A stretch of DNA of 64,000 nucleotides from a bacterium (lineage in GTDB: Bacteria > SZUA-79 > Acidulodesulfobacterales > Acidulodesulfobacteraceae): the NCBI GenBank assembly GCA_021777135.1, contig JAJYDX010000001.1, positions 434,001 to 498,000 of the forward strand, read 5' to 3'. The position numbers and the translations under genes were made by a program. Below are positions 2,195 to 14,643 of the stretch, in pieces. Under the pieces are notes generated by a model that was not told where the DNA came from, did not search any database, and saw only the letters and a list, made by a program, of their open reading frames with translations. Within the stretch, counting starts at the first letter, position 1, and the number at the start of each line of letters is the position of its first letter.

Positions 2195-3385
2195 ATGGGT
2201 AAAAAGCACCAGACTCCGCTTCTTGACGAGCTAAAAAAAGGGAAGTGGATAAGTTTTGTCAGGGAAATAGAAAGAGCAGCAGAAAAGAGTGAAAGAACCG
2301 AAGACCTTTTGGGACAGGTAGAGGAATCCTATCGCGATAAAGTGAATCATTGGAAACACGGAGGAATGGCTGGTGTTAAAGGATATGGCGCCGGTATGGT
2401 GGGTAGATTCAGCGAGTTTCCTGAAAAATATCCCGGAATAAAAGAGTGCCATTCCATGAGAATTATACCTTCAGCAGGATTCTTTTATAATTCAGATTTT
2501 TTAAGAAAATTAGCTGATATTTCTGAAAAACACGCCGGCGGATTATTAAACTTTCATGGCGCTACCGGAAATATTCAGATACTTGGAATGTCTCAGGCTG
2601 AAGCAGAAGACGCGTTCCAAGCTATTGCAGAATTAGGATTCGATCTCGGCGGAAGCGGTTCTGATTTAAGAACACCTTCTTGTTGCGCTGGACAAGCGAG
2701 ATGTGAATTCGCAAATTATGACACTATGAAAATTTGCCATGACTTAACCGAAGAATATCAGGACGAACTTCATAGGCCGGCATTTAATTATAAATTTAAA
2801 TTTAAATTTTCAGGATGCGCCAACGACTGCGTCGCTTCAGCCGCAAGATCCGATCTTGCCTTTATAGGTACATGGAAAGACAAAATAAAAATTAATCAAG
2901 GTGAAGTAAAAAATTACGTTCAAAAATTTAACGTTCAAAAATACGTATTAGATAAATGCCCAACTAAATGTATGTGGTTTGAAGGCGATAATCTTGTAAT
3001 AGACGATGAAAACTGCGTTAAATGCATGCATTGTATAAATGAAATGCCTAAAGCATTAAGAGCCGGAGATGAAAAGGGAGCATCTATTTTAATAGGCGCA
3101 AAAGCTCCTTTAGTTACCGGTCCAAGAATGGGTATGATGCTTGTTCCGTTTTATGATATAAACGAAGATGCAAAAAACGATTATGAACAATTGAAAGCTT
3201 TAATAAGCAATATGTGGGAGTTCTGGGATGAATTCGGAGTCAGCAGAGAAAGAATAGGAGAACTTATCGGAAGAGTCGGTCTAAATACTTTCCTTGAAGG
3301 AATAGGTTTAGAACCGATGCCGGAAATGGTAGAACATCCAAGAAGCAACCCGTTTATCAAGTTTACGGAAGAAGGCGAAGAATAA
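2195..3385 (+). CDS. dsrA: Dissimilatory sulfite reductase alpha subunit
   Basis: DsrA forms the cytoplasmic alpha2beta2 enzyme that interconverts sulfite and DsrC-bound or free sulfide-level sulfur, using siroheme coupled to a [4Fe-4S] cluster. The cluster ligand pattern is intact: CAGQARC (Cys164, Cys170) followed by GCANDC (Cys208, Cys212). The stretch YQDELHRPAFNYKFKFKF is a close match to known DsrA. A ferredoxin insert follows with Cys255, Cys259, Cys274, Cys277 and Cys280. At 396 aa it is slightly shorter than the roughly 420-440 aa of Desulfovibrio-type DsrA. The start has a perfect AAGGAGG site. It is the first gene of a + strand operon with dsrB. Whether it is the reductive or oxidative type needs a tree. 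Confidence 0.97.
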   Translation: MGKKHQTPLLDELKKGKWISFVREIERAAEKSERTEDLLGQVEESYRDKVNHWKHGGMAGVKGYGAGMVGRFSEFPEKYPGIKECHSMRIIPSAGFFYNSDFLRKLADISEKHAGGLLNFHGATGNIQILGMSQAEAEDAFQAIAELGFDLGGSGSDLRTPSCCAGQARCEFANYDTMKICHDLTEEYQDELHRPAFNYKFKFKFSGCANDCVASAARSDLAFIGTWKDKIKINQGEVKNYVQKFNVQKYVLDKCPTKCMWFEGDNLVIDDENCVKCMHCINEMPKALRAGDEKGASILIGAKAPLVTGPRMGMMLVPFYDINEDAKNDYEQLKALISNMWEFWDEFGVSRERIGELIGRVGLNTFLEGIGLEPMPEMVEHPRSNPFIKFTEEGEE

Positions 3386-3448
3386 ACTTTTAACAATAAT
3401 AAATTAAATTAAGATTAAGATATACGAAAAAATAAATTGGAGGTTAAT

Positions 3449-4534
3449 ATGGCAGAAGAAGTTAAAAAGAAAAGGCTTACAGACGTTGGACCTCATGATT
3501 ACAATGAATATTTGTCCCCTATGATAAAAAAGAATTATGGTAAATGGGCATATCACGAGATTTTAGATACTGCTACTATGGTTCACGTATCTGAAAACGG
3601 AGATAAGCTTTATACGGTCAGGATGGGTTCTCCAAGATTAGTAAGCGGAAGCTTTGTTAGGGATATTTGCGATGTAGCCGATAAGTATTGCGGCGGATTT
3701 CTGAGATTCACAACAAGAAATAATGTCGAGTTTTTAATAGAAGATGAAAAAAACGTCGAACCGCTTAAAAAAGACCTTGAAAAATTAGGATATAATCCCG
3801 GCGGAATTGGTAATATAGTAGCAAACATTGTTCATACGCAGGGTTGGGTTCATTGCCACACTTCAGCTAGCGATGCATCAGGTGTTGTAAAATCTGTTAT
3901 GGACGAACTATATGAATATTTTGTTGAAGACAAACTTCCGTCAAAAGTCAGGATTGCTTTTGCATGCTGTTTAAATATGTGCGGTTCAGTTTCTTCTTCC
4001 GATATAGCAATTGTTGGAACGCACAAAAAACCGCCGAGAATTGATGCAGAAAGACTTAGAAACCTTTGCGAAATACCAAGCACTATCGCCGCGTGCCCCA
4101 CTAATTCTATAAGACCTGATACCGTGGATGGCAAGCCTGGCGTAAAAGTAAATGAAGAGACGTGCGTTTTTTGCGGTAGCTGTTATACGGTCTGCCCAGC
4201 AATGCCTATCGCAAATGCCGAAAATGACGGTTTGTCTATTTGGGTTGGAGGAAAGGTTTCAAATGCAAGGACGAAACCAACGTTTTCTAAATTAGCAATT
4301 CCGTTTATACCTAACGACCCCCCGAGATGGCCGGGCGTAGTTGAAGCCGTAAAAACCATACTTAACGCGTATAAAAAAGGTGCTGAGCCAGGAGAAAGGG
4401 TTGGCGAATGGATAGAAAGGATTGGCTGGTCAAGATTCTTTAAAGTCACCGGCTTCCCGTTTACCAAGTATCATATTGACGACTTTAGGCTTGGTGAGAC
4501 TACAATGAATTATTCGGCTCACACAAGATTATAA
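3449..4534 (+). CDS. dsrB: Dissimilatory sulfite reductase beta subunit
   Basis: DsrB carries the catalytically active siroheme site of DsrAB. It has the expected HCHT (Cys136) and ACCLNMCG (Cys173, Cys174, Cys178) siroheme/[4Fe-4S] ligands. A ferredoxin domain follows with Cys216, then [12 protein letters not shown] (Cys239, 242, 245, 249). The stretch [17 protein letters not shown] is characteristic of the family. I place the start at the ATG (361 aa). A longer reading from a TTG at 3437 would begin inside the TTGGAGG ribosome binding site. It lies 63 bp after dsrA. Confidence 0.97.
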
Positions 4535-4580
4535 AAATAATTTTCGATTTTATAAATAAAAACTAAATGGGGTGTTTATA

Positions 4581-4817
4581 ATGACAGATGAAACAAAGAA
4601 AAAAGTCGAAGATAAAATAGTCGGACTCGTTAAAGAGTACGCAGGAAAAAAAAGATTTAAACCTATAGATATCGTTAAAGAAATGGAAAAGGAATTTGCA
4701 AGCGAAGGATTGACTAAAGACGATATTAAAGGAGCATTAAAAGAGATTATGGACGATGAAAAACTTGTTTATGGTTATGCCGGCGGTAGCTTTCTCACAT
4801 TGCCTGAAAACAAGTAA
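4581..4817 (+). CDS. dsrD: DsrD, allosteric activator of DsrAB
   Basis: This 78-aa winged-helix protein has the full DsrD length and the typical C-terminus YGYAGGSFLTLP. DsrD is known to bind and activate DsrAB for sulfite reduction, and is used as a marker for the reductive direction, although a few sulfur-disproportionating or sulfide-oxidising organisms also carry it. The start is taken at the ATG behind ATGGGGTG. An upstream GTG would add three residues inside the ribosome binding site. It sits between dsrB and dsrL in the operon. Confidence 0.93.
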   Translation: MTDETKKKVEDKIVGLVKEYAGKKRFKPIDIVKEMEKEFASEGLTKDDIKGALKEIMDDEKLVYGYAGGSFLTLPENK

Positions 4818-4900: not shown

Positions 4901-6613
4901 ATGCTTGAATTGAAAAAAGTAAAGAAGCCGGTTAAGATTACAGCAAGTACCGGCGGTGGCATGTCTCAATCGCCGTTTAGACCAAAGTATGTACAAAAAA
5001 AGCCGCCATGCATGGATACATGTCCTAACGGCACTAAAGTAAGAGATTATATACAGTTTATAGCGCAGAGCGAATCCTACGACAGGCCATTGGATGAGTC
5101 TTTAACGCAGGCGTTTTATATGCTTACAGAATCTAATCCCTTGCCTTCCGTAACAGGAAGAGTCTGTCCGCATCCTTGCGAGGATGCCTGCAACAGGAGC
5201 GAAAAAGACAGCCCTGTCGCTATAAACGCCATAGAAATGTTTGTGGGAGATTACGGAATAAAAAACAATATTCAGTTTAAGAAGCTTAACGATGTCCAGA
5301 GAAAAGAAAAAATTGCTGTTATAGGCAGCGGTCCAGCAGGACTTTCCGCGGCATATCATCTTGCAATAAGAGGGTATAATGTTACTATTTTCGAAAAATA
5401 TCCACATGTTGGCGGATATTTAAGATATGGAATCCCCAGTTTCAGACTTCCTTTGGATATTATAGACGCAGAAGCCGGACGCATTAAAAATCTCGGCGTA
5501 GAAATTAAAACTGGTGTTAATGTAGGAACTGATATAACTATAGATAGCCTTAAATCAGATTTTGATGCCGTTTTCGTTGCCATTGGAACGCATGAACCCA
5601 TTAAAATGAAGATGAACGGTGCAGATTCACCAAATGTCTATACCGGTATAGAGTTTCTTCAGAAAGCTGCCTCGGGCGAATTAAAAGATGCCGGCAAGGA
5701 AGTTGTTGTTATTGGAAGCGATAGCGCAATGGATGCTGGAATGGTTGCTAAAAGGCTCGGAGCAAACGTAACTTTTATTTATAATAAAGGTACGGTAAGC
5801 GACGCATCCGAAATAGAAGAAAAAGGTTCAACCGAAGTTAAAGAGGGTCATGCCGAAGGAATTAAATTCGAGTTTTTATTTGCTTTAGATGAAATAATTA
5901 CCGAAAACGGAAAAGCTGTTGGAGTAAAGCTAAAAAAAATGAAGCTTTCCGAAAAAGATGCTTCAGGCAGAGTCCATCCTATAATTATAGAAGGCGGACA
6001 GGAACTTAACATAAAGTTAGATACACTTATTTATTCATTTGGTCAGAAGCCAAATTATAAAGGTTTGGAGAACTTGACAAAAAATTCTAACAATGAGTTC
6101 TTAAAAGTTGACGATAATTATCTCGTTGCTAATGAAGATAAGGTTTTTGCCGGCGGCGATATATTGAAATTCGGATTAGTTACAGATGCTATAGGAATGG
6201 GAAGATATGCGGCATACGCAATACATGAAAAATTTACCGGCGAGAAGGTAATCAACGATGAAAGAAAAGTAATAAAATACGGTGACGCAGTCAATAGGGA
6301 AGGAAAAAATATGTATATAGCATATTTTCAAACTACCGAAAGACAGAAAAGGACCTCCCGTGATCCTTTAACTAGAGTCAAGGATTTTGAAGGTATTTTA
6401 AATGACCTTAGTTTAGATGAGCTTGTATTGGAAGCAAAAAGATGTATGAGTTGCGGAATGTGTTTTGACTGTGGAAGCTGTTTCGAATACTGCTCTCAGA
6501 GCGCAGTGAAAAAATTGCCTAAAGGTCAGCATTTCGAGTTTCATTTGGAAACATGCAATGGATGTAAAAAATGTGCTGAAAGCTGTCCATGCGGTTATAT
6601 AGATATGGTTTAA
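4901..6613 (+). CDS. dsrL: DsrL-like iron-sulfur flavoprotein NAD(P)H oxidoreductase
   Basis: DsrL is a cytoplasmic NAD(P)H:DsrAB electron-transfer flavoprotein related to the small subunit of glutamate synthase. The 570-aa protein begins with a GltD-type Fe-S domain (Cys37, Cys41, then CPHPCEDAC at 89-97). An FAD-binding GSGPAG follows at 142-147, and an NAD(P)-binding segment (VVVIGSDSAMDAG) near residue 270. It ends in a cysteine-rich tail with CMSCGMCFDCGSCFEYC and CNGCKKCAESCP for two [4Fe-4S] clusters. The family is large, so the name rests on context between dsrD and dsrC. It is shorter than the roughly 650-aa DsrL of purple sulfur bacteria, which suggests the shorter DsrL variant seen alongside reductive-type DsrAB. 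Confidence 0.85.
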   Translation: MLELKKVKKPVKITASTGGGMSQSPFRPKYVQKKPPCMDTCPNGTKVRDYIQFIAQSESYDRPLDESLTQAFYMLTESNPLPSVTGRVCPHPCEDACNRSEKDSPVAINAIEMFVGDYGIKNNIQFKKLNDVQRKEKIAVIGSGPAGLSAAYHLAIRGYNVTIFEKYPHVGGYLRYGIPSFRLPLDIIDAEAGRIKNLGVEIKTGVNVGTDITIDSLKSDFDAVFVAIGTHEPIKMKMNGADSPNVYTGIEFLQKAASGELKDAGKEVVVIGSDSAMDAGMVAKRLGANVTFIYNKGTVSDASEIEEKGSTEVKEGHAEGIKFEFLFALDEIITENGKAVGVKLKKMKLSEKDASGRVHPIIIEGGQELNIKLDTLIYSFGQKPNYKGLENLTKNSNNEFLKVDDNYLVANEDKVFAGGDILKFGLVTDAIGMGRYAAYAIHEKFTGEKVINDERKVIKYGDAVNREGKNMYIAYFQTTERQKRTSRDPLTRVKDFEGILNDLSLDELVLEAKRCMSCGMCFDCGSCFEYCSQSAVKKLPKGQHFEFHLETCNGCKKCAESCPCGYIDMV

Positions 6614-6660: not shown

Positions 6661-7002
6661 ATGGCAGAACTCGATTATAATGGAAAAAAAATTCAAACAG
6701 ACGATGAAGGCTACCTTCAAAACCTTGGAGATTGGGATAAGGGTCTAGCTGAAGCACTAGCTAAAACTGAGAGCGTTGAGCTCACTGAAAAACACTGGAA
6801 ACTTATTGAATGGATAAGAAATTATTTTCAGCAGTTTCAAGTGGCTCCGGCTATTAAATCTCTTACTAAAGAGGTTATGACGCTTGAGAATTTACCAGAC
6901 AAAAAAGAAGCAAATAAGTTCATCTATGAATTATTTCCTGAAGGTCCGGCAAAACAATTAGCTAAAATAGCTGGATTACCCAAACCTACGGGATGCGTTT
7001 AA
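6661..7002 (+). CDS. dsrC: DsrC-like sulfur carrier with a single C-terminal cysteine
   Basis: DsrC carries sulfur on a flexible C-terminal arm. Canonical DsrC forms a trisulfide between two conserved cysteines 11 residues apart, which DsrMK then reduces. This 113-aa protein ends GPAKQLAKIAGLPKPTGCV. The penultimate Cys112 is present, but the second site, residue 101, is alanine (codon GCT at 6961-6963). There is no other cysteine in the protein. That cysteine pattern is the one seen in TusE rather than in two-cysteine DsrC. The body (DDEGYLQNL, LTEKHW, APAIKSLTK) resembles the DsrC/TusE lineage of gamma-proteobacteria. A strong GAGGAGG site precedes the ATG, and dsrM follows after a hairpin-containing gap. 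No frameshift or truncation is seen. Confidence 0.92.
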   Translation: MAELDYNGKKIQTDDEGYLQNLGDWDKGLAEALAKTESVELTEKHWKLIEWIRNYFQQFQVAPAIKSLTKEVMTLENLPDKKEANKFIYELFPEGPAKQLAKIAGLPKPTGCV

Positions 7003-7116: not shown

Positions 7117-7878
7117 ATGGAGCCTCTTAATCTAACGACCGCTATATATTTATTATTTACGTACACTGTCGGGTTAATATTCGCTATAGGAGTAGTTTTA
7201 AGAATATATCAATATTCGGTAACCCCACAACCAATTAAAATTATGCTTACTCCTGCCCCTCTAACCAAGGGTGGAGCATTTGCAAGAGTTCTAGGAGAAG
7301 TATTTTTCTTTAAAAGTCTTTTTAAATCGAATAAAGCAACTTGGATTTTCGGATATTTGTTCCATATTTCGTTTTTCTTGTTGATATTCATGCATTTTTT
7401 GAGACATTTTATATACTCTAATCCTCTGCCTTGGTGGTACAATATATTCGTGGGTATTGGAATAGTTTGCGGCATAGTTATGGTGATTTCGCTTTTTCTT
7501 TTATTAATGAGAAGAGTGGTTATAGAGAGAGTCAAATTTATATCATTATTTCAAGATTATTTAATTCTTATACTTTTAATGCTTATTGGTTTGGCAGGAT
7601 TGTCCTTAAATTATGTTTTGACGTCGTCTGCATTAACGGTCGTCGATAATCAGTTGGATCCGTATATGAACGGACTTCTAACATTCCAGTTTACCAATAT
7701 TCCATCAAATCCAATTTTTTTGATTCATTATACGCTTGTAATGTTATTAATTCTTTATATTCCTTTCAGTAAAGTAATGCATTTTGTCGGCATATTCTTT
7801 TCACCTACCAGGAATATGGCTGATAATCCAATAGAAGAAAGATATTATAGACCTAACGCAAAAGATTTGTCTATTTAA
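7117..7878 (+). CDS. dsrM: DsrM, membrane cytochrome b subunit of DsrMK
   Basis: This 253-aa integral membrane protein belongs to the NarI-like cytochrome b family. About five or six hydrophobic helices are visible (residues 10-27, 73-95, 104-133, 144-166, 200-226). Histidines for heme b occur in FHISFFLLIFMHFLRH and in LIHYTLVMLL. DsrM passes electrons between the quinone pool and the catalytic subunit DsrK. The short length is like that of oxidiser-type and Gram-positive DsrM rather than the longer Desulfovibrio form. CAGGGGGGAG precedes the ATG. dsrK follows after 76 bp. Confidence 0.9.
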   Translation: MEPLNLTTAIYLLFTYTVGLIFAIGVVLRIYQYSVTPQPIKIMLTPAPLTKGGAFARVLGEVFFFKSLFKSNKATWIFGYLFHISFFLLIFMHFLRHFIYSNPLPWWYNIFVGIGIVCGIVMVISLFLLLMRRVVIERVKFISLFQDYLILILLMLIGLAGLSLNYVLTSSALTVVDNQLDPYMNGLLTFQFTNIPSNPIFLIHYTLVMLLILYIPFSKVMHFVGIFFSPTRNMADNPIEERYYRPNAKDLSI

Positions 7879-7954
7879 AATATAAAAATAAAATATATAA
7901 ATATATAACCTGCAATTTTGATTCTATAAAGAATTAAACGGAGGTATGAACTGT

Positions 7955-9442
7955 ATGGCTAAGGCAAAAGATAAATATAAAGTACCGGTTTTGGACGGTA
8001 AAATTTCAATTCCTAAGATAGTTCCGGGAGCTTCTGCATATGAGCATATGATAGAAGCACAAAAAGACGATATGGAAGCCCTAGGCTTTCCTTTTAAGCT
8101 TCAAGATGGTTGGAAGGAGAAAGCGTTAGGTGTTTTCAAAGAAATACTAGACCATAATAAGGCTGTCAGGGACTATATGGATATATGCGTCAGGTGCGGA
8201 GCATGCGCAGATAAATGTCAATTTTTCCTTGGAACCGCAGATCCAAACAATATGCCGGTTCAAAGACAGGAATTAATGAGAAAGGTATATAGGTACTATT
8301 TTACACCTTCCGGATTTTTTAAGAGCCTTTCAAACGCTCAAGAATTAACAGAAGAAGTTTTAAAAGAGTGGTACACATATTTTTGGCAGTGCTCCGAATG
8401 CAGAAGATGTTCTCTTTATTGTCCTTATGGAATAGATACAGCAGAAATTACTATGGCGGCAAGGCAGATTATGGATTCGATAGGTTTAGGACAGAAATAT
8501 ACCACGGAAGTTATACATAAAGTTTTTAAGACTGGAAATAATATAGGAATACCTCCAGCTGCTTTAAGAAATACTCTTGACGATTTAGAAGAAGAAATCG
8601 AAGAAGAAGGCGGAAAAGGGGTTAAAATACCAATGGATGTCGAAGGCGCGGAGGTTTTGTTAGTTCCGCCGTCGGCAGATTTTTTTGCTATGCCTCACAT
8701 GGAATCATTAAAAGGATACGCAAAAGTATTTCATAAAGCCGGTATAAGCTATACAGTCTCTTCTTATGCTTCAGAAGCAGGAAACTTTGGCAAATTTATA
8801 GGAAGCTATCAAAATACAAAAGAAATAAATAAAAGAATATGGGACGAGGCAAGAAGGCTTAAGGTAAAAAGAGTCATTATAGGAGAATGCGGGCATGCCT
8901 GGAGAGCTGCTTATATGTATTCTAACACAATGAACGGTCCTTTTGATTTTTTAGACTCTAAATATAAACAGCCTACCCATATATGCGACTTTACATTAGG
9001 ATTAGTAAAAGACGGAGTTATAAAGCTAGATCCTTCAGCAAATGACGACAAGGTAGTTACATTTCACGATTCATGCAACGTAGCAAGAGGCTCGAGGATT
9101 GGGGACGTCGTCGGAGGGCAGTTTACTATACCAAGGGAGCTTATAAAAGCCTCTGCAAATAGGTTTGTAGAGTTAAGGGAAGGTACTACTAAAGAAAGTA
9201 CTTTCTGTTGCGGTGCTGGCGGAGGTTTATTAACAGAAGAAGTTATGAACGTAAGGCTTGCCGGTTCTATGCCCAGGATGCAGACTGTGAAAGAAGCTGT
9301 AGATAATCACGGCGTAAATTTCTATGCACTTATATGCGCAATTTGCAAAACTCAATTTACAAAGGTATTTCCTCTTTACGGATTGGATGCTGACATGATA
9401 GGAGGAATTCACCAGTTGGTAAGCAATGCGATTGTAATGTAA
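7955..9442 (+). CDS. dsrK: DsrK, HdrD-like catalytic iron-sulfur subunit
   Basis: DsrK is a peripheral cytoplasmic subunit related to heterodisulfide reductase HdrD, and is thought to act on DsrC. The 495-aa protein has two [4Fe-4S] motifs, CVRCGACADKC (78-88) and CSECRRCSLYC (146-156). CCG-type cysteines follow: CGHAW, then SCNVARG, FCCGAGGG and CAICK. By my count the last set reads C-x43-CC-x41-CxxC, so the special catalytic cluster site looks complete. I use the second ATG, because the first lies only two nt after the GGAGG site. No dsrJ, dsrO or dsrP follows. Confidence 0.93.
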   Translation: MAKAKDKYKVPVLDGKISIPKIVPGASAYEHMIEAQKDDMEALGFPFKLQDGWKEKALGVFKEILDHNKAVRDYMDICVRCGACADKCQFFLGTADPNNMPVQRQELMRKVYRYYFTPSGFFKSLSNAQELTEEVLKEWYTYFWQCSECRRCSLYCPYGIDTAEITMAARQIMDSIGLGQKYTTEVIHKVFKTGNNIGIPPAALRNTLDDLEEEIEEEGGKGVKIPMDVEGAEVLLVPPSADFFAMPHMESLKGYAKVFHKAGISYTVSSYASEAGNFGKFIGSYQNTKEINKRIWDEARRLKVKRVIIGECGHAWRAAYMYSNTMNGPFDFLDSKYKQPTHICDFTLGLVKDGVIKLDPSANDDKVVTFHDSCNVARGSRIGDVVGGQFTIPRELIKASANRFVELREGTTKESTFCCGAGGGLLTEEVMNVRLAGSMPRMQTVKEAVDNHGVNFYALICAICKTQFTKVFPLYGLDADMIGGIHQLVSNAIVM

Positions 9443-9490: not shown

Positions 9491-9841
9491 ATGAAACTTG
9501 GCGTTCTTATTAAAGAAGGACCATATATGCATCAAGCAATTGATACAGCATATAATTTTATTATTGCGGCAATGGAAGAAGGACATGAAATAAACGGTAT
9601 ATTTTTTTATAACGACGGCGTTTATAACAGATGCGCTACTCTCGAGCCGCCTAGAGATGAAAGAAATATCATGAAACTTCTTACCGAGTTGGAACTTAAA
9701 GGTGTCCGCTTAATAGTCTGCGTAGCCGCAGGTAAGAGAAGGGGTATAGTTAACCAGACAGTATGCAAGGTTGAAGAAATTTCCGGATTAGGGCAGCTTC
9801 TTGAACTATGCATAACCTCCGATAGAACGGTAACGTTTTAA
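9491..9841 (+). CDS. dsrE: DsrE, TusD-like sulfurtransferase subunit
   Basis: DsrE is the sulfur-binding subunit of the cytoplasmic DsrE2F2H2 complex, which passes persulfide sulfur to DsrC in sulfur oxidisers. It is homologous to TusD. The 116-aa protein keeps the active cysteine at residue 77 in VCVAAGKRRG, equivalent to Cys78 of Allochromatium DsrE. Extra cysteines occur near residues 48, 92 and 107. The ATG is preceded by GGGAGGAATG. It is the first of three contiguous genes, E-F-H, directly after dsrK. Confidence 0.92.
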   Translation: MKLGVLIKEGPYMHQAIDTAYNFIIAAMEEGHEINGIFFYNDGVYNRCATLEPPRDERNIMKLLTELELKGVRLIVCVAAGKRRGIVNQTVCKVEEISGLGQLLELCITSDRTVTF

Positions 9842-9884: not shown

Positions 9885-10259
9885 ATGTCGGAACAGGAAA
9901 AAACAAAAGTTATGTTTGTATGCAGGACTGCTCCATACGGAACCATTTATGAGCAGGAGGCAATAGAAGCTATGGTTATGTTTGGGGCATATGAACAGGA
10001 TGTAAGCGTAAGTTTTATAGGGGACGGAGTTTATTCCCTAAAAAAGGGACAGGATACATCTTTGCTCGGTAAGAAAAATTTTTCAATGGCTTATCCTATT
10101 TTAATAGATGACTTTGAAATTTCACACATTTATGTTGAAAAAGAATCTCTTGAAGAAAGAGGATTAAAAGACAGCGATTTGATGACTGAAGTTGAAATAT
10201 TAGACAGAAATGCGTTAAAACAAAAAATGAATGAAATGAAGGCGCTTTTACCTTTTTAA
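9885..10259 (+). CDS. dsrF: DsrF, TusC-like subunit of DsrEFH
   Basis: This 124-aa protein is the TusC-type middle subunit of the DsrEFH heterohexamer. The N-terminal TAPYGTIYEQEAIEAMVMFGA and the following SFIGDGVYSL match the family. Its role is structural or supportive, because the catalytic cysteine lies in DsrE. It has one cysteine, near residue 13. It lies 43 bp after dsrE and 31 bp before dsrH, in the same operon. Confidence 0.9.
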   Translation: MSEQEKTKVMFVCRTAPYGTIYEQEAIEAMVMFGAYEQDVSVSFIGDGVYSLKKGQDTSLLGKKNFSMAYPILIDDFEISHIYVEKESLEERGLKDSDLMTEVEILDRNALKQKMNEMKALLPF

Positions 10260-10290: not shown

Positions 10291-10593
10291 TTGTTGCATA
10301 TAATTAAAAAATCACCTTATGAATCATCGGCTCTTAAAGACGCCGTTGAATACATAGGACAAAACGACGATGTGGTTCTTTTAACGGAAGACGGTGTATA
10401 TGCCGCTAAAAAGGGCGGCAAGTTTGAAGGATTATTAGTAGATTTAACAAAAAAAAATAGCGTTTACTGTCTTTTGGCAGATATAAAAGCAAGAGGGATA
10501 CAGGAAAGCGAAATAGCAGAAAACATAAAAATTATTGATTATAAAGGTTTTGTAGAAAAAGTCGTAGAACACAATCCAATGACTTGGTCTTAA
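10291..10593 (+). CDS. dsrH: DsrH, TusB-like subunit of DsrEFH
   Basis: This is a 100-aa TusB-type subunit with the family opening HIIKKSPYESSAL and a VLLTEDGVYAA segment. The start is a TTG 6-7 nt after GGAGGAG, with no better ATG. The first 40 residues contain no cysteine, although Allochromatium DsrH has a functional Cys near position 20. The only cysteine here is near residue 60 (VYCLLA). Sulfur handling would then rest on DsrE. It is the last gene of the dsr operon and is followed by two hairpins. Confidence 0.88.
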   Translation: MLHIIKKSPYESSALKDAVEYIGQNDDVVLLTEDGVYAAKKGGKFEGLLVDLTKKNSVYCLLADIKARGIQESEIAENIKIIDYKGFVEKVVEHNPMTWS

Positions 10594-10910: not shown

Positions 10911-12134
10911 ATGGCGTTAGTAAACCCGCACGGTAAAGAAAAAAAATTAAAACCGCTTCTGCTAACTGGCAATGAACTTAAGGAAGCTAAAGAAAAAGCA
11001 AAAAATCTTAAAAAATTACCAATGACTTCAAGAGAAACCTCTGATTTAATAATGATGGGTATAGGCGCGTTTACTCCTCTGGAAGGATTTATGGGAAAAC
11101 AAGATTGGCAGGGCGTAGTTGATAATTATACTATGAAAGACGGAACTTTCTGGCCTATTCCTATTACTCTTTCTGCTACAAAGGAAATTGCTGACGAAAT
11201 AAAAATAGGAGAGGAAGTAGCGCTCGTAGATTTTGAAACTTCTGAAATAATTGGAATAATCACCGTATCAGAAAAATATTCGATTGACAAAGCTCATGAG
11301 TGTCAAAAAGTGTTTAAAACAACCGACATGGAACACCCCGGAGTTCAAAAAGTTATGGCCCAGGGAGACGTCAATATTGCCGGTAAAGTAGTAGTTTTAA
11401 GCGAGAGCACTTATCCAGTCGAGTTTAAGGAAATATATATGCGCCCGGCAGAGGTTAGAAAAATATTTGAGGAGAAAGGCTGGAATACTGTTGCCGCGTT
11501 TCAAACCAGAAACCCAATGCATCGTTCGCATGAGTATCTTGCAAAGGTTGCAATAGAAACTACCGACGGAGTACTTATTCACCAGCTTGTAGGTAAATTA
11601 AAACCCGGCGATATTCCAGCGAATGTTAGAGCTGTTGCTATTAATACCTTAATGGATAATTATTTTGTTAAAAATACTATAGTGCAGGCAGGATACCCTA
11701 TGGAAATGAGATATGCAGGACCAAGGGAAGCTCTTCTTCACGCAGTTTTCAGACAAAATTATGGCTGTTCACACCTTATAGTAGGAAGGGATCATGCAGG
11801 AGTAGGCGATTACTACGGACCATTTGATGCGCATAAAATATTTGATGAAATTCCAAAAAATGCTTTAGAATTAAAGCCTTTAAAAATGGATCTTACGTTT
11901 TATTGCCATAAATGCGATGGTATGGCTTCAACTAGAACTTGCCCCCACTCTAAGGAAGACAGGCTTACATTAAGCGGCACAATGCTAAGAAAACTTTTAT
12001 CAGAAGGTCAGGATGTACCAGATCATTTTTCAAGACCAGAGGTTTTAGCTATATTAAAAGATTATTATGCTTCTCTTTCGAAAGAAGATAAAGTAGAAGT
12101 AAAACTTCATAAAGCAGCTAAAGGAGAGATTTAA
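10911..12134 (+). CDS. sat: ATP sulfurylase (sulfate adenylyltransferase)
   Basis: This 407-aa homo-oligomeric dissimilatory-type ATP sulfurylase forms APS and pyrophosphate from sulfate and ATP, or runs in reverse in sulfur oxidation. The active-site segment [11 protein letters not shown] near residue 200 and [16 protein letters not shown] near residue 295 are intact. A CHKC...CPH zinc-type segment near residue 342 is as in dissimilatory Sat. No APS kinase domain is fused, which fits a dissimilatory role. It is followed by aprB after 81 bp. A GGAGGGAC site precedes the ATG. Confidence 0.96.
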
Positions 12135-12215
12135 TTTATATATTGTCCTGTTTACCGAGCGGATAATATATCGTTTTATATATAAAAATAATATATCAAT
12201 TAAGGAGGTATGAAA

Positions 12216-12650
12216 ATGCCAAGTTTTGTAATTACTGAAAAATGCGACGGTTGCAAGGGAAGGGATAAGACTGCTTGCCAGTATATCTGCCCTAACGACC
12301 TTATGGTTCTTAACAAGGACATTATGAAGGCTTATAATCAGGAGCCGGATCAATGCTGGGAGTGTTACAGCTGTGTTAAAATTTGTCCTCAGTCTGCAGT
12401 GGAAGTTAGAGCATATCAGGATTTTGCGCCATTAGGTTCTTCGGTTATACCTATGCGTGGATCTGATTCTATTATGTGGACTGTAAAATTTAGAAATGGA
12501 AAGATTAAAAGATTTAAGTTCCCAATAAGGACTACTCCGGAAGGTGGTATAGACCCATATCAGGGAATTGCCGAAGTTAACCAGGGAAATTTGAAAGACG
12601 AACGTCTATGCGATGAACTTGGAATAGAACTTACGGTTCCTAAGAAATAA
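12216..12650 (+). CDS. aprB: APS reductase beta subunit
   Basis: AprB is the ferredoxin-like subunit that carries electrons to the flavin of AprA. The 144-aa protein has two [4Fe-4S] motifs: CDGCKGRDKTACQYICP (from residue 8) and CWECYSCVKICP (from residue 46). The C-terminal tail, which in the family wraps around AprA, is present. I choose the second ATG, giving MPSFVITEKCDGC as in known AprB and a 7-nt gap from AAGGAGG. Starting two codons earlier is possible. Confidence 0.96.
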   Translation: MPSFVITEKCDGCKGRDKTACQYICPNDLMVLNKDIMKAYNQEPDQCWECYSCVKICPQSAVEVRAYQDFAPLGSSVIPMRGSDSIMWTVKFRNGKIKRFKFPIRTTPEGGIDPYQGIAEVNQGNLKDERLCDELGIELTVPKK

Positions 12651-12717
12651 AGTCAGGAATGCGGTAACGCATTATTTTTAAATTAAAATAATATATAAAT
12701 TGTGAGGATAAATTGTT

Positions 12718-14643
12718 ATGGCTGAAATGAAAGGTTCAATGACAAGCACCGATGTTTTAAACAATTATACCATAGAAGAAATAAATACCGATGTATTAAT
12801 CGTCGGCGGCGGTATGGTTGGATGCGGAGCAGCATTTGAAATAAAGAAGTGGGCTCCAAAAGATATGAAAATAACGATGGTGGAAAAAGCTTCAATAGAA
12901 AGAAGCGGCGCGGTCGCAATGGGATTATCCGCTATTAATACTTATCTTGGAGACAATACTCCAGAAGATTATGTTAAGCATGTTGCTAACGACCTTATGG
13001 GTATAGTAAGAGAAGACCTTATTTATGATACCGGAAGACACGTAGATTCAACAGTTCAACTTTTTGAAAAATTCGGACTTCCTATATTCAAAGAAGACGA
13101 AGAAGACACCAGATCTATCGCTGAAGGCGCAAGACCGTTAAGAGCAGGTAGATGGCAGATAATGATTCACGGTGAATCCTATAAAGTATTAGTTGCCGAA
13201 GCTGCAAGAAAAGCTCTTGGAGAAGAAAATATTTTAGAAAGAGTATTTATAACTGAACTTCTTATGGACGAAAAACATGAGAACAGAGTTGCGGGAGCAA
13301 TCGGTTTCAGCTTAAGAGAAGCCAAGATTTATATATTTAAAGCTAAATCAGTTATTATGGCTTGCGGCGGAACGGTCAACGTTTTCAGACCAAGATCTCA
13401 GGCCGAAGGTATGGGAAGAACATGGTATGCTATATGGAATGCCGGTTCGACGTATGCTATGGGCTATCAGGCAGGAGCGGAAATGACCACTATGGAAAAC
13501 AGATTCGTTCCAAATAGATTTAAAGACGGATACGGTCCTGTCGGAGCGTGGTTCACACTCTTTAAATCAAGAGTTTTAAATGCTCATGGCGAAGACTATA
13601 TGCAGAAATGGGGACATATGCTTCAGGACTATGCGCCTTATGGTTTAGCAAAAGTACCCGCGACCTGCTTATGGAACCATGTTATGTTAAAAGACTGGAT
13701 GGAAGGAAACGGTCCTTTCTATATGAACACCTCAGGAGCAATCAAAACACTTTTCGAAACTCTTCCTGAAAAGAGAAAGAAGTCTCTTGAAGCAGATGCA
13801 TGGGAAGATTTCCTTGATATGACAGTAGCTCAGGCTGGATTATGGGCAGCAATGGATATAGATCCGGCAGAAACAAATTCTGAAGTTATGCCTACCGAGC
13901 CATATTTCTTAGGTTCCCATTCTGGAGCATGTGGAATGTGGGTTTCCGGACCAGAAGATTTAGCCCCGAAAGAGTACCAATGGGGTTATAACCGTATGAC
14001 CACTGTTAACGGTCTTTTCACAGGAGGAGACGGCGTCGGTGCATCCGGACATAAATTCTCTTCCGGTTCATACGTGGAGGGAAGAATCGCCGCAAAATCA
14101 GCCGTAAGATTTGTATTAGACGATTCAGGCTATACACCTACTGTTCATACCGATAACAAAACACTTGCCGAAAAAGTATACGGACCAATGATTACATTCG
14201 AGAAATTTAAAGATTATTCTACTGAGTCTAATGTAAATCCGAACTATATAAAACCAAGACTTTATTTGTTCAGATTAAATAAACTTATGGATGAATATGT
14301 TGCCGGAACTTCCACGTTCTATAGGACAAGCGAAGCTAATCTTTTAAGAGGATTAGATCTTTTGAACAGACTTAAAGACGATGCTCCAAAACTTGCTGCG
14401 TCAAATCTACATGAGCTTATGAGAGCATGGGAAAATTACCATAGGTCTATAGTAGGAGAACTTCATTTAAGACATGTTTTGTTTAGAGAAGAGACCAGAT
14501 ATCCTGGTTTTTATTACAGAACAGACCATCCAAAACTTGACGAACAGAATTGGAAATTATTCGTTAACTCTAAATTGAACAAAGCAACCGGACAGCCGGA
14601 ATTATTCAAGAAGCCTTATATCGAAATAGTTCCAAAGAGCTAA
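12718..14643 (+). CDS. aprA: APS reductase alpha subunit
   Basis: AprA is the FAD subunit that interconverts APS with sulfite and AMP. The 641-aa protein has an N-terminal FAD-binding DVLIVGGGMVGCGAA near residue 24. The RSGAVAMGLSAINTY segment near residue 62 and the FTGGDGVGASGHKFSSGS segment near residue 440 are strongly conserved in the family. It is a typical length. It follows aprB by 67 bp and ends the sat-aprBA unit at a terminator. Confidence 0.97.
   Translation: MAEMKGSMTSTDVLNNYTIEEINTDVLIVGGGMVGCGAAFEIKKWAPKDMKITMVEKASIERSGAVAMGLSAINTYLGDNTPEDYVKHVANDLMGIVREDLIYDTGRHVDSTVQLFEKFGLPIFKEDEEDTRSIAEGARPLRAGRWQIMIHGESYKVLVAEAARKALGEENILERVFITELLMDEKHENRVAGAIGFSLREAKIYIFKAKSVIMACGGTVNVFRPRSQAEGMGRTWYAIWNAGSTYAMGYQAGAEMTTMENRFVPNRFKDGYGPVGAWFTLFKSRVLNAHGEDYMQKWGHMLQDYAPYGLAKVPATCLWNHVMLKDWMEGNGPFYMNTSGAIKTLFETLPEKRKKSLEADAWEDFLDMTVAQAGLWAAMDIDPAETNSEVMPTEPYFLGSHSGACGMWVSGPEDLAPKEYQWGYNRMTTVNGLFTGGDGVGASGHKFSSGSYVEGRIAAKSAVRFVLDDSGYTPTVHTDNKTLAEKVYGPMITFEKFKDYSTESNVNPNYIKPRLYLFRLNKLMDEYVAGTSTFYRTSEANLLRGLDLLNRLKDDAPKLAASNLHELMRAWENYHRSIVGELHLRHVLFREETRYPGFYYRTDHPKLDEQNWKLFVNSKLNKATGQPELFKKPYIEIVPKS

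Follow-up and report, generated by a model that had tools for sequence, protein, structure and literature searches.

A DsrC with a single cysteine encoded in the dsr operon of Candidatus Acidulodesulfobacterales and of Desulfurella

Introduction

Sulfite reduction is considered to be coupled to energy conservation through the two-cysteine DsrC trisulfide, and the trisulfide work of Santos (2015) is taken to require both cysteines. In the cycle as described, sulfur at the sirohaem goes onto the C-terminal cysteine, a trisulfide is then closed with the second one, and DsrMK reduces this trisulfide (PMC10504309, PMC3397948). The second cysteine, 11 residues before the penultimate one (position −11), is described as strictly conserved wherever energy metabolism is sulfur-based, while TusE-type proteins usually have one cysteine and Ala at −11 (PMC3397948). 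Cys111 of Allochromatium vinosum DsrC alone takes sulfur from DsrEFH and binds sulfite, Cys100 being dispensable for both (PMC3397948). In field papers a DsrC with the cysteine pair counts as fully functional (PMC6018796), and a cysteine-motif filter has been applied to phage dsrC (PMC8190135).

Ca. Acidulodesulfobacterales (SZUA-79), which includes Ca. Acididesulfobacter diazotrophicus AP1, was the subject of Tan 2019, in which a bidirectional metabolism was proposed, the DsrAB of the order was reported to be of the reductive type, and dsr expression was reported from metatranscriptomes (PMC6776010). The DsrC proteins of this order and of Desulfurella were placed together by Neukirchen et al. 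2023, with the cysteines unmentioned (PMC10504309). Desulfurella is described as a sulfur and thiosulfate reducer; within the genus, thiosulfate is respired by D. amilsii but, as reported, not by D. acetivorans (PMC5317093). In the literature searched, the one-cysteine state was reported for neither group; an earlier mention of the Desulfurella DsrC in other papers is possible. Here we describe a dsr operon from a 64,000-nucleotide stretch of a genome of the order (the window).

The dsrC gene and its operon

The operon has the order dsrA-dsrB-dsrD-dsrL-dsrC-dsrM-dsrK-dsrE-dsrF-dsrH and is followed by sat and aprBA (Table 1). The dsr genes other than dsrD were named by profile, and sat and apr by ORF inspection.

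Table 1. Location of the dsr operon, of adjoining genes and of dsrC features in the window
Feature	Position	Strand	Basis or remark
dsrA	2195..3385	+	TIGR02064, 492.9 bits
dsrB	3437..4534	+	TIGR02066, 486 bits
dsrD	4572..4817	+	Synteny; 58-60% identical to the Desulfurella gene at the corresponding operon position; profiles gave no match
dsrL (NAD(P)H:acceptor oxidoreductase); adjoins dsrC on its upstream side	4901..6613	+	NF009410, 536 bits; Pyr_redox_2, Fer4_20
dsrC, 113 aa, single cysteine C112	6661..7002	+	PF04358, 133.8 bits; TIGR03342, 135.8 bits; only DsrC of the genome
C-terminal arm of DsrC, PAKQLAKIAGLPKPTGCV	6946..6999	+	
Codon 101, GCT (Ala), replacing the conserved CysB (−11)	6961..6963	+	Ala in 25/25 arms of the order; synonymous codon variation
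Codon 112, TGC, penultimate cysteine (CysA), sole cysteine of DsrC	6994..6996	+	
dsrM	7117..7878	+	Best match NF038037, 104 bits, under its cut-off; PF02665
dsrK, oxidative-type, CCG ligands intact (HDSC...FCCG...CAIC)	7946..9442	+	NF045796, 530.9 bits; alignment; for the oxidative type, PMC10504309
dsrE	9491..9841	+	TIGR03012, 101 bits
dsrF	9885..10259	+	TIGR03010, 108.5 bits
dsrH, without Cys20-equivalent	10291..10593	+	TIGR03011, 87.6 bits; Ala18 at the Cys20 column
sat (sulfate activation)	10911..12134	+	ORF inspection; adjoins dsrEFH in relatives
aprB (12210-12650), aprA (12718-14643)	12210..14643	+	ORF inspection

The window DsrC (MAELDYNG...LFPEGPAKQLAKIAGLPKPTGCV) scores far above the PF04358 cut-off of 24.9 bits, and its score with the TusE equivalog NF008562 (105.2 bits) is below the cut-off of that profile (191). 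It shares with DsrC proteins from sulfate-reducing and sulfur-oxidising organisms (1SAU, 2V4J, 1YX3) the family, the PKPTGCV arm, the penultimate cysteine and the place in a dsr operon, but differs at −11, which is Cys in those proteins, Ala in the order and Val in Desulfurella. All five solved DsrC structures aligned to it (1YX3, 1SAU, 1JI8, 2XSJ, 2V4J) have Cys in this column. Reading of the codons confirmed what the sequence-only reading had stated, namely that residue 101 is Ala, at a spacing of exactly 11 residues from C112, and that the protein has no other cysteine. The genome, which is 100% complete, includes one DsrC copy. As judged from its sequence, the formation of an intramolecular trisulfide on this DsrC is impossible without a second cysteine, and the last step of the textbook scheme cannot run here as described.

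Distribution within the order

The class consists of 30 genomes belonging to one family. The dsrA/B genes were found in 24 of them and DsrC in 23 of these 24, the exception being G014, where the dsr contig stops in dsrB. DsrC was absent from all six genomes without dsrA/B, and TusA-family genes were present in four of the four such genomes tested. Since DsrC is present only alongside dsrAB, it is tied to dsrAB and not to a housekeeping TusE role.

Position −11 is Ala in 25 of 25 DsrC arms. In the 24 full-length genes this residue is encoded by GCC (10), GCT (8) or GCA (6), and C112 is invariant. Synonymous sites of dsrC are near saturation within the order, and dN/dS is ~0.01-0.13 where dS is measurable. 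The fixation of Ala and Cys in the 25 arms, the synonymous codons and the low dN/dS values together indicate that the dsrC of the order is functional and that Ala at −11 is maintained by purifying selection. Ala in every arm, its three synonymous codons and the low dN/dS also rule out a sequencing error, a pseudogene or a chance variant.

A two-cysteine DsrC was found in none of the 23 dsrC-bearing genomes, several of which are 99-100% complete. The whole-genome and related-genome searches for dsrC and the clade-wide alignment of the arm, both proposed in the sequence-only reading, thus yielded no two-cysteine copy and Ala throughout. Two MAGs, G017 (L015/L025) and G026 (L002/L024), each carry two different single-cysteine dsrC loci, which could be either true duplications or the product of mixed bins.

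The operon of Desulfurella

The same operon type was found in Desulfurella, the first case in the broad sample being D. acetivorans A63 (G262), followed by D. amilsii TR1 (G386) and another genome of the genus (G387). All three have the order dsrA-B-D-L-C-M-K seen in the window, with dsrL directly upstream of dsrC as in SZUA-79 and with adjoining DsrMK; the dsrABDLCMK operon has been described previously (PMC5317093). The operon DsrC (arm QLVRYAGLSKPTGCV) has a single cysteine and is 58% identical to the window DsrC, but has Val instead of Ala at −11, and the operon is without DsrH. A MAG of the same class (G400) carries dsrA-B-D-L-C-M and a DsrC also with Val at −11. The earlier proposal of a complete dsr operon whose DsrC partner has a single cysteine is supported and extends to the whole order and to Desulfurella.

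Each Desulfurella genome includes a second DsrC with a single cysteine and Ala at −11, so that both copies in the 99.9% complete D. amilsii draft are single-cysteine. A two-cysteine dsrC elsewhere in the genome, which had been offered as one way out, consequently finds no counterpart in the order, and the additional DsrC that D. amilsii does have is of the one-cysteine type as well. These second copies (L226, L228, L157; arm KKAAKIAGIKKPVGCV) are unlinked to the operon and group with separate single-cysteine DsrC-like proteins located away from dsrAB and dsrMK.

The D. acetivorans operon (L158, G262:C1:1352000-1367000) is degraded when set against that of G387, with a replaced start in dsrA, a deletion of 279 bases in dsrL, and dsrL and dsrK frames broken by single-base changes. 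The dsrC gene is intact; PMC5317093 states that it is not encoded. This degradation fits the reported failure of D. acetivorans to respire thiosulfate, and this one comparison fits a working role of the one-cysteine operon of D. amilsii in sulfite reduction.

Comparison with two-cysteine systems and phylogeny

Outside both groups, position −11 is Cys in the 29 genomes where DsrC lies near dsrAB and in the 26 further genomes where it lies near dsrMK, in a contrast sample of mostly one genome per family among the matches listed. The only other ORFs beside dsrAB or dsrMK are two arm-less paralogues; one shares its locus with a two-cysteine copy, and for the other (L078) no further DsrC copy is in view. 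In the remaining DsrC-like proteins where −11 is Ala, Thr, Ser or Gly, the gene lies away from dsrAB and dsrMK. Another broad sample, overlapping largely with the first one, and one small phylum included no further one-cysteine DsrC linked to dsr genes.

In a tree built with the −11 column omitted, a branch supported at 98/98.7 separates the Ala and Val forms of the two groups from the rest. Other single-cysteine forms are found elsewhere in the best tree; for this short protein, the AU test did not reject the grouping of all single-cysteine forms together (p 0.189). The simplest history would be one loss of the cysteine in the ancestor of this DsrC clade, together with transfer of the gene across the two phyla. 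TusE and the other single-cysteine DsrC-like proteins resemble the window protein in their one cysteine and often in Ala at −11, but differ in their branch of the best tree and in their arm, whereas DsrC of the window type is strictly tied to dsrAB. The description of the arm as TusE-like did not hold: the arm keeps KIAGLPKPTGCV, the DsrC-type sequence, and the best tree groups the window DsrC with the dsr-linked DsrC of Desulfurella.

The mixed operon L194 resembles that of the window in having dsrA, dsrB, dsrD, dsrL, dsrM, dsrK and dsrEFH, but its DsrC retains Cys at −11 (QACKIAGLPKPTGCV). L194 keeps the cysteine together with dsrL and dsrEFH, and therefore neither gene set alone goes with cysteine loss. 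TusA and TusBCD-type families are both present in SZUA-79, and neither TusA nor DsrH was found in the Desulfurella genomes. The one-cysteine state is therefore not a consequence of DsrEFH, and the idea that the DsrC serves only DsrEFH is disfavoured, the same DsrC type being present in Desulfurella.

A scan for shared extra cysteines found none in DsrA, B, D, K, L or M that would be a compensating cysteine specific to both one-cysteine groups. C467 of DsrK, common to both groups, belongs to the oxidative-type CxxC and is also found in some two-cysteine systems. In a search for dsrJOP elsewhere in the genome, G001 had no NrfD-family protein and G000 had one, on another contig; DsrMK of the order is likely without DsrJOP, in agreement with PMC10504309.

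Possible mechanisms

We consider it about an even call that the window gene encodes a true operon DsrC in a one-cysteine variant, which would carry sulfur as a Cys112 persulfide and bypass the intramolecular trisulfide. The wider proposal, that two lineages of different phyla carry out a trisulfide-free dissimilatory sulfite reduction with a one-cysteine persulfide DsrC and a changed split of electrons between DsrAB/DsrL and DsrMK, may be as readily right as wrong. DsrL with NAD(P)H would feed DsrAB, and sulfite would be reduced further than in the two-cysteine system, because the two electrons of a second DsrC thiol are lacking. DsrAB would leave zero-valent sulfur on Cys112 (Cys112-S-SH); sulfide could then be freed by a second thiol, from another DsrC or a small thiol, attacking the persulfide, or by direct cleavage by DsrK, and the product would be re-reduced by DsrMK, the heterodisulfide-reductase-type cluster ligands of which are intact. 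Run oxidatively, the cycle could have DsrEFH load this persulfide and DsrAB/DsrL oxidise it. Single-cysteine persulfide handling had been suggested from the window alone; it is favoured by the distribution, the purifying selection, the intact DsrK ligands and the place of dsrL next to dsrC in both groups, and because the C-terminal cysteine of A. vinosum DsrC by itself accepts sulfane sulfur and binds sulfite (PMC3397948). The distribution is what the sequences show; each chemical step is inferred. Against the persulfide stands the lack of a shared compensating cysteine in the partners as a source of the second thiol. The trisulfide work, with its reported need for both cysteines, weakens it as well, and DsrAB could instead give off free sulfide.

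The main rival, to which we give a minor share of the probability, is an intermolecular disulfide or trisulfide, in which DsrC gives one cysteine and a partner, either a second DsrC or a small thiol, gives the other, so that the textbook cycle runs in trans, with DsrMK reducing the heterodisulfide as HdrDE does CoM-S-S-CoB. This would be the smallest chemical change and agrees with the intact CCG ligands of DsrK and the full conservation of the arm and the penultimate cysteine, but an arm would have to come close to a second arm or to some other thiol, and the sequences give no sign of a change in dimerisation or of a partner thiol. Less probable still is that the operon serves sulfur or sulfide oxidation, with DsrEFH loading the Cys112 persulfide and DsrAB/DsrL oxidising it to sulfite, so that the second cysteine is unneeded. 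The location of dsrEFH near dsrC in the order, the oxidative-type DsrK, the transfer to Cys111 in vitro without Cys100 (PMC3397948) and the proposed bidirectional metabolism (PMC6776010) all speak for oxidation; however, the reducer Desulfurella (PMC5317093) has the same DsrC without DsrH and TusA, dsrD is present and DsrAB is reported as reductive-type (PMC6776010), and A. vinosum, a known oxidiser, retains the second cysteine (PMC3397948). That DsrAB makes free sulfide alone, with electrons from DsrL as in F420-dependent sulfite reductases, DsrC being a trafficking or regulatory remnant, is about as improbable as the oxidative role: DsrL is encoded in both groups and the cysteine loss would then be cost-free, but dsrC is kept between dsrL and dsrM under strong purifying selection, with arm and C112 conserved, it is missing wherever dsrAB is missing, and the retained dsrMK would be without substrate.

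Two further explanations carry very little weight. A TusE-type tRNA-thiolation protein located in the operon by chance would agree with the single cysteine and the Ala at −11 usual for that type (PMC3397948), with the TusBCD-like DsrEFH downstream and with the TusA-family genes of the genome. It is nevertheless highly improbable given the absence of DsrC from the six dsrA/B-less genomes, with TusA-family genes in the four of them tested, the lack of TusA and DsrH in Desulfurella, the DsrC-type arm and the position in the best tree, where the AU result quoted above applies. Hardly credible at all is a two-cysteine DsrC lost in assembly gaps: the genomes are draft MAGs, but none of the 23 dsr-bearing genomes of the order has such a copy, G000 being 100% complete, and the D. 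amilsii draft agrees.

The rule of a strictly conserved second cysteine thus has a fixed natural exception in an acid mine drainage order and in the cultured Desulfurella, and a cysteine-motif filter such as that applied to phage dsrC (PMC8190135) would drop a real dissimilatory DsrC. The exception offers a natural variant for tracing which electrons go where, and a trisulfide-free route, if true, changes how much energy sulfate reduction yields. The proposal can be tested in a cultured organism, D. amilsii.

Other features of the operon

Codon 107 of the window dsrA encodes Ala, as in Desulfurella, and Cys is found at this position in 17 of 21 DsrA proteins of two-cysteine systems; it is possible, from this comparison, that this cysteine and the second cysteine of DsrC were lost together. 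An in-frame TAG in dsrA, listed by a genome search at seven places, was discarded, as only the terminal stop had been counted. At codon 118 of dsrM, most members of the order have a cysteine that is absent from all compared DsrM, including those of Desulfurella. Throughout the order DsrH has Ala18 at the Cys20-equivalent and has Cys60 instead, unlike A. vinosum DsrH. A YNK motif in DsrL has been reported for Ca. Acidulodesulfobacterales (PMC7596348); the window DsrL has this motif (IYNKG) in place of the NADP(H)-type YRR, and may consequently use NAD(H).
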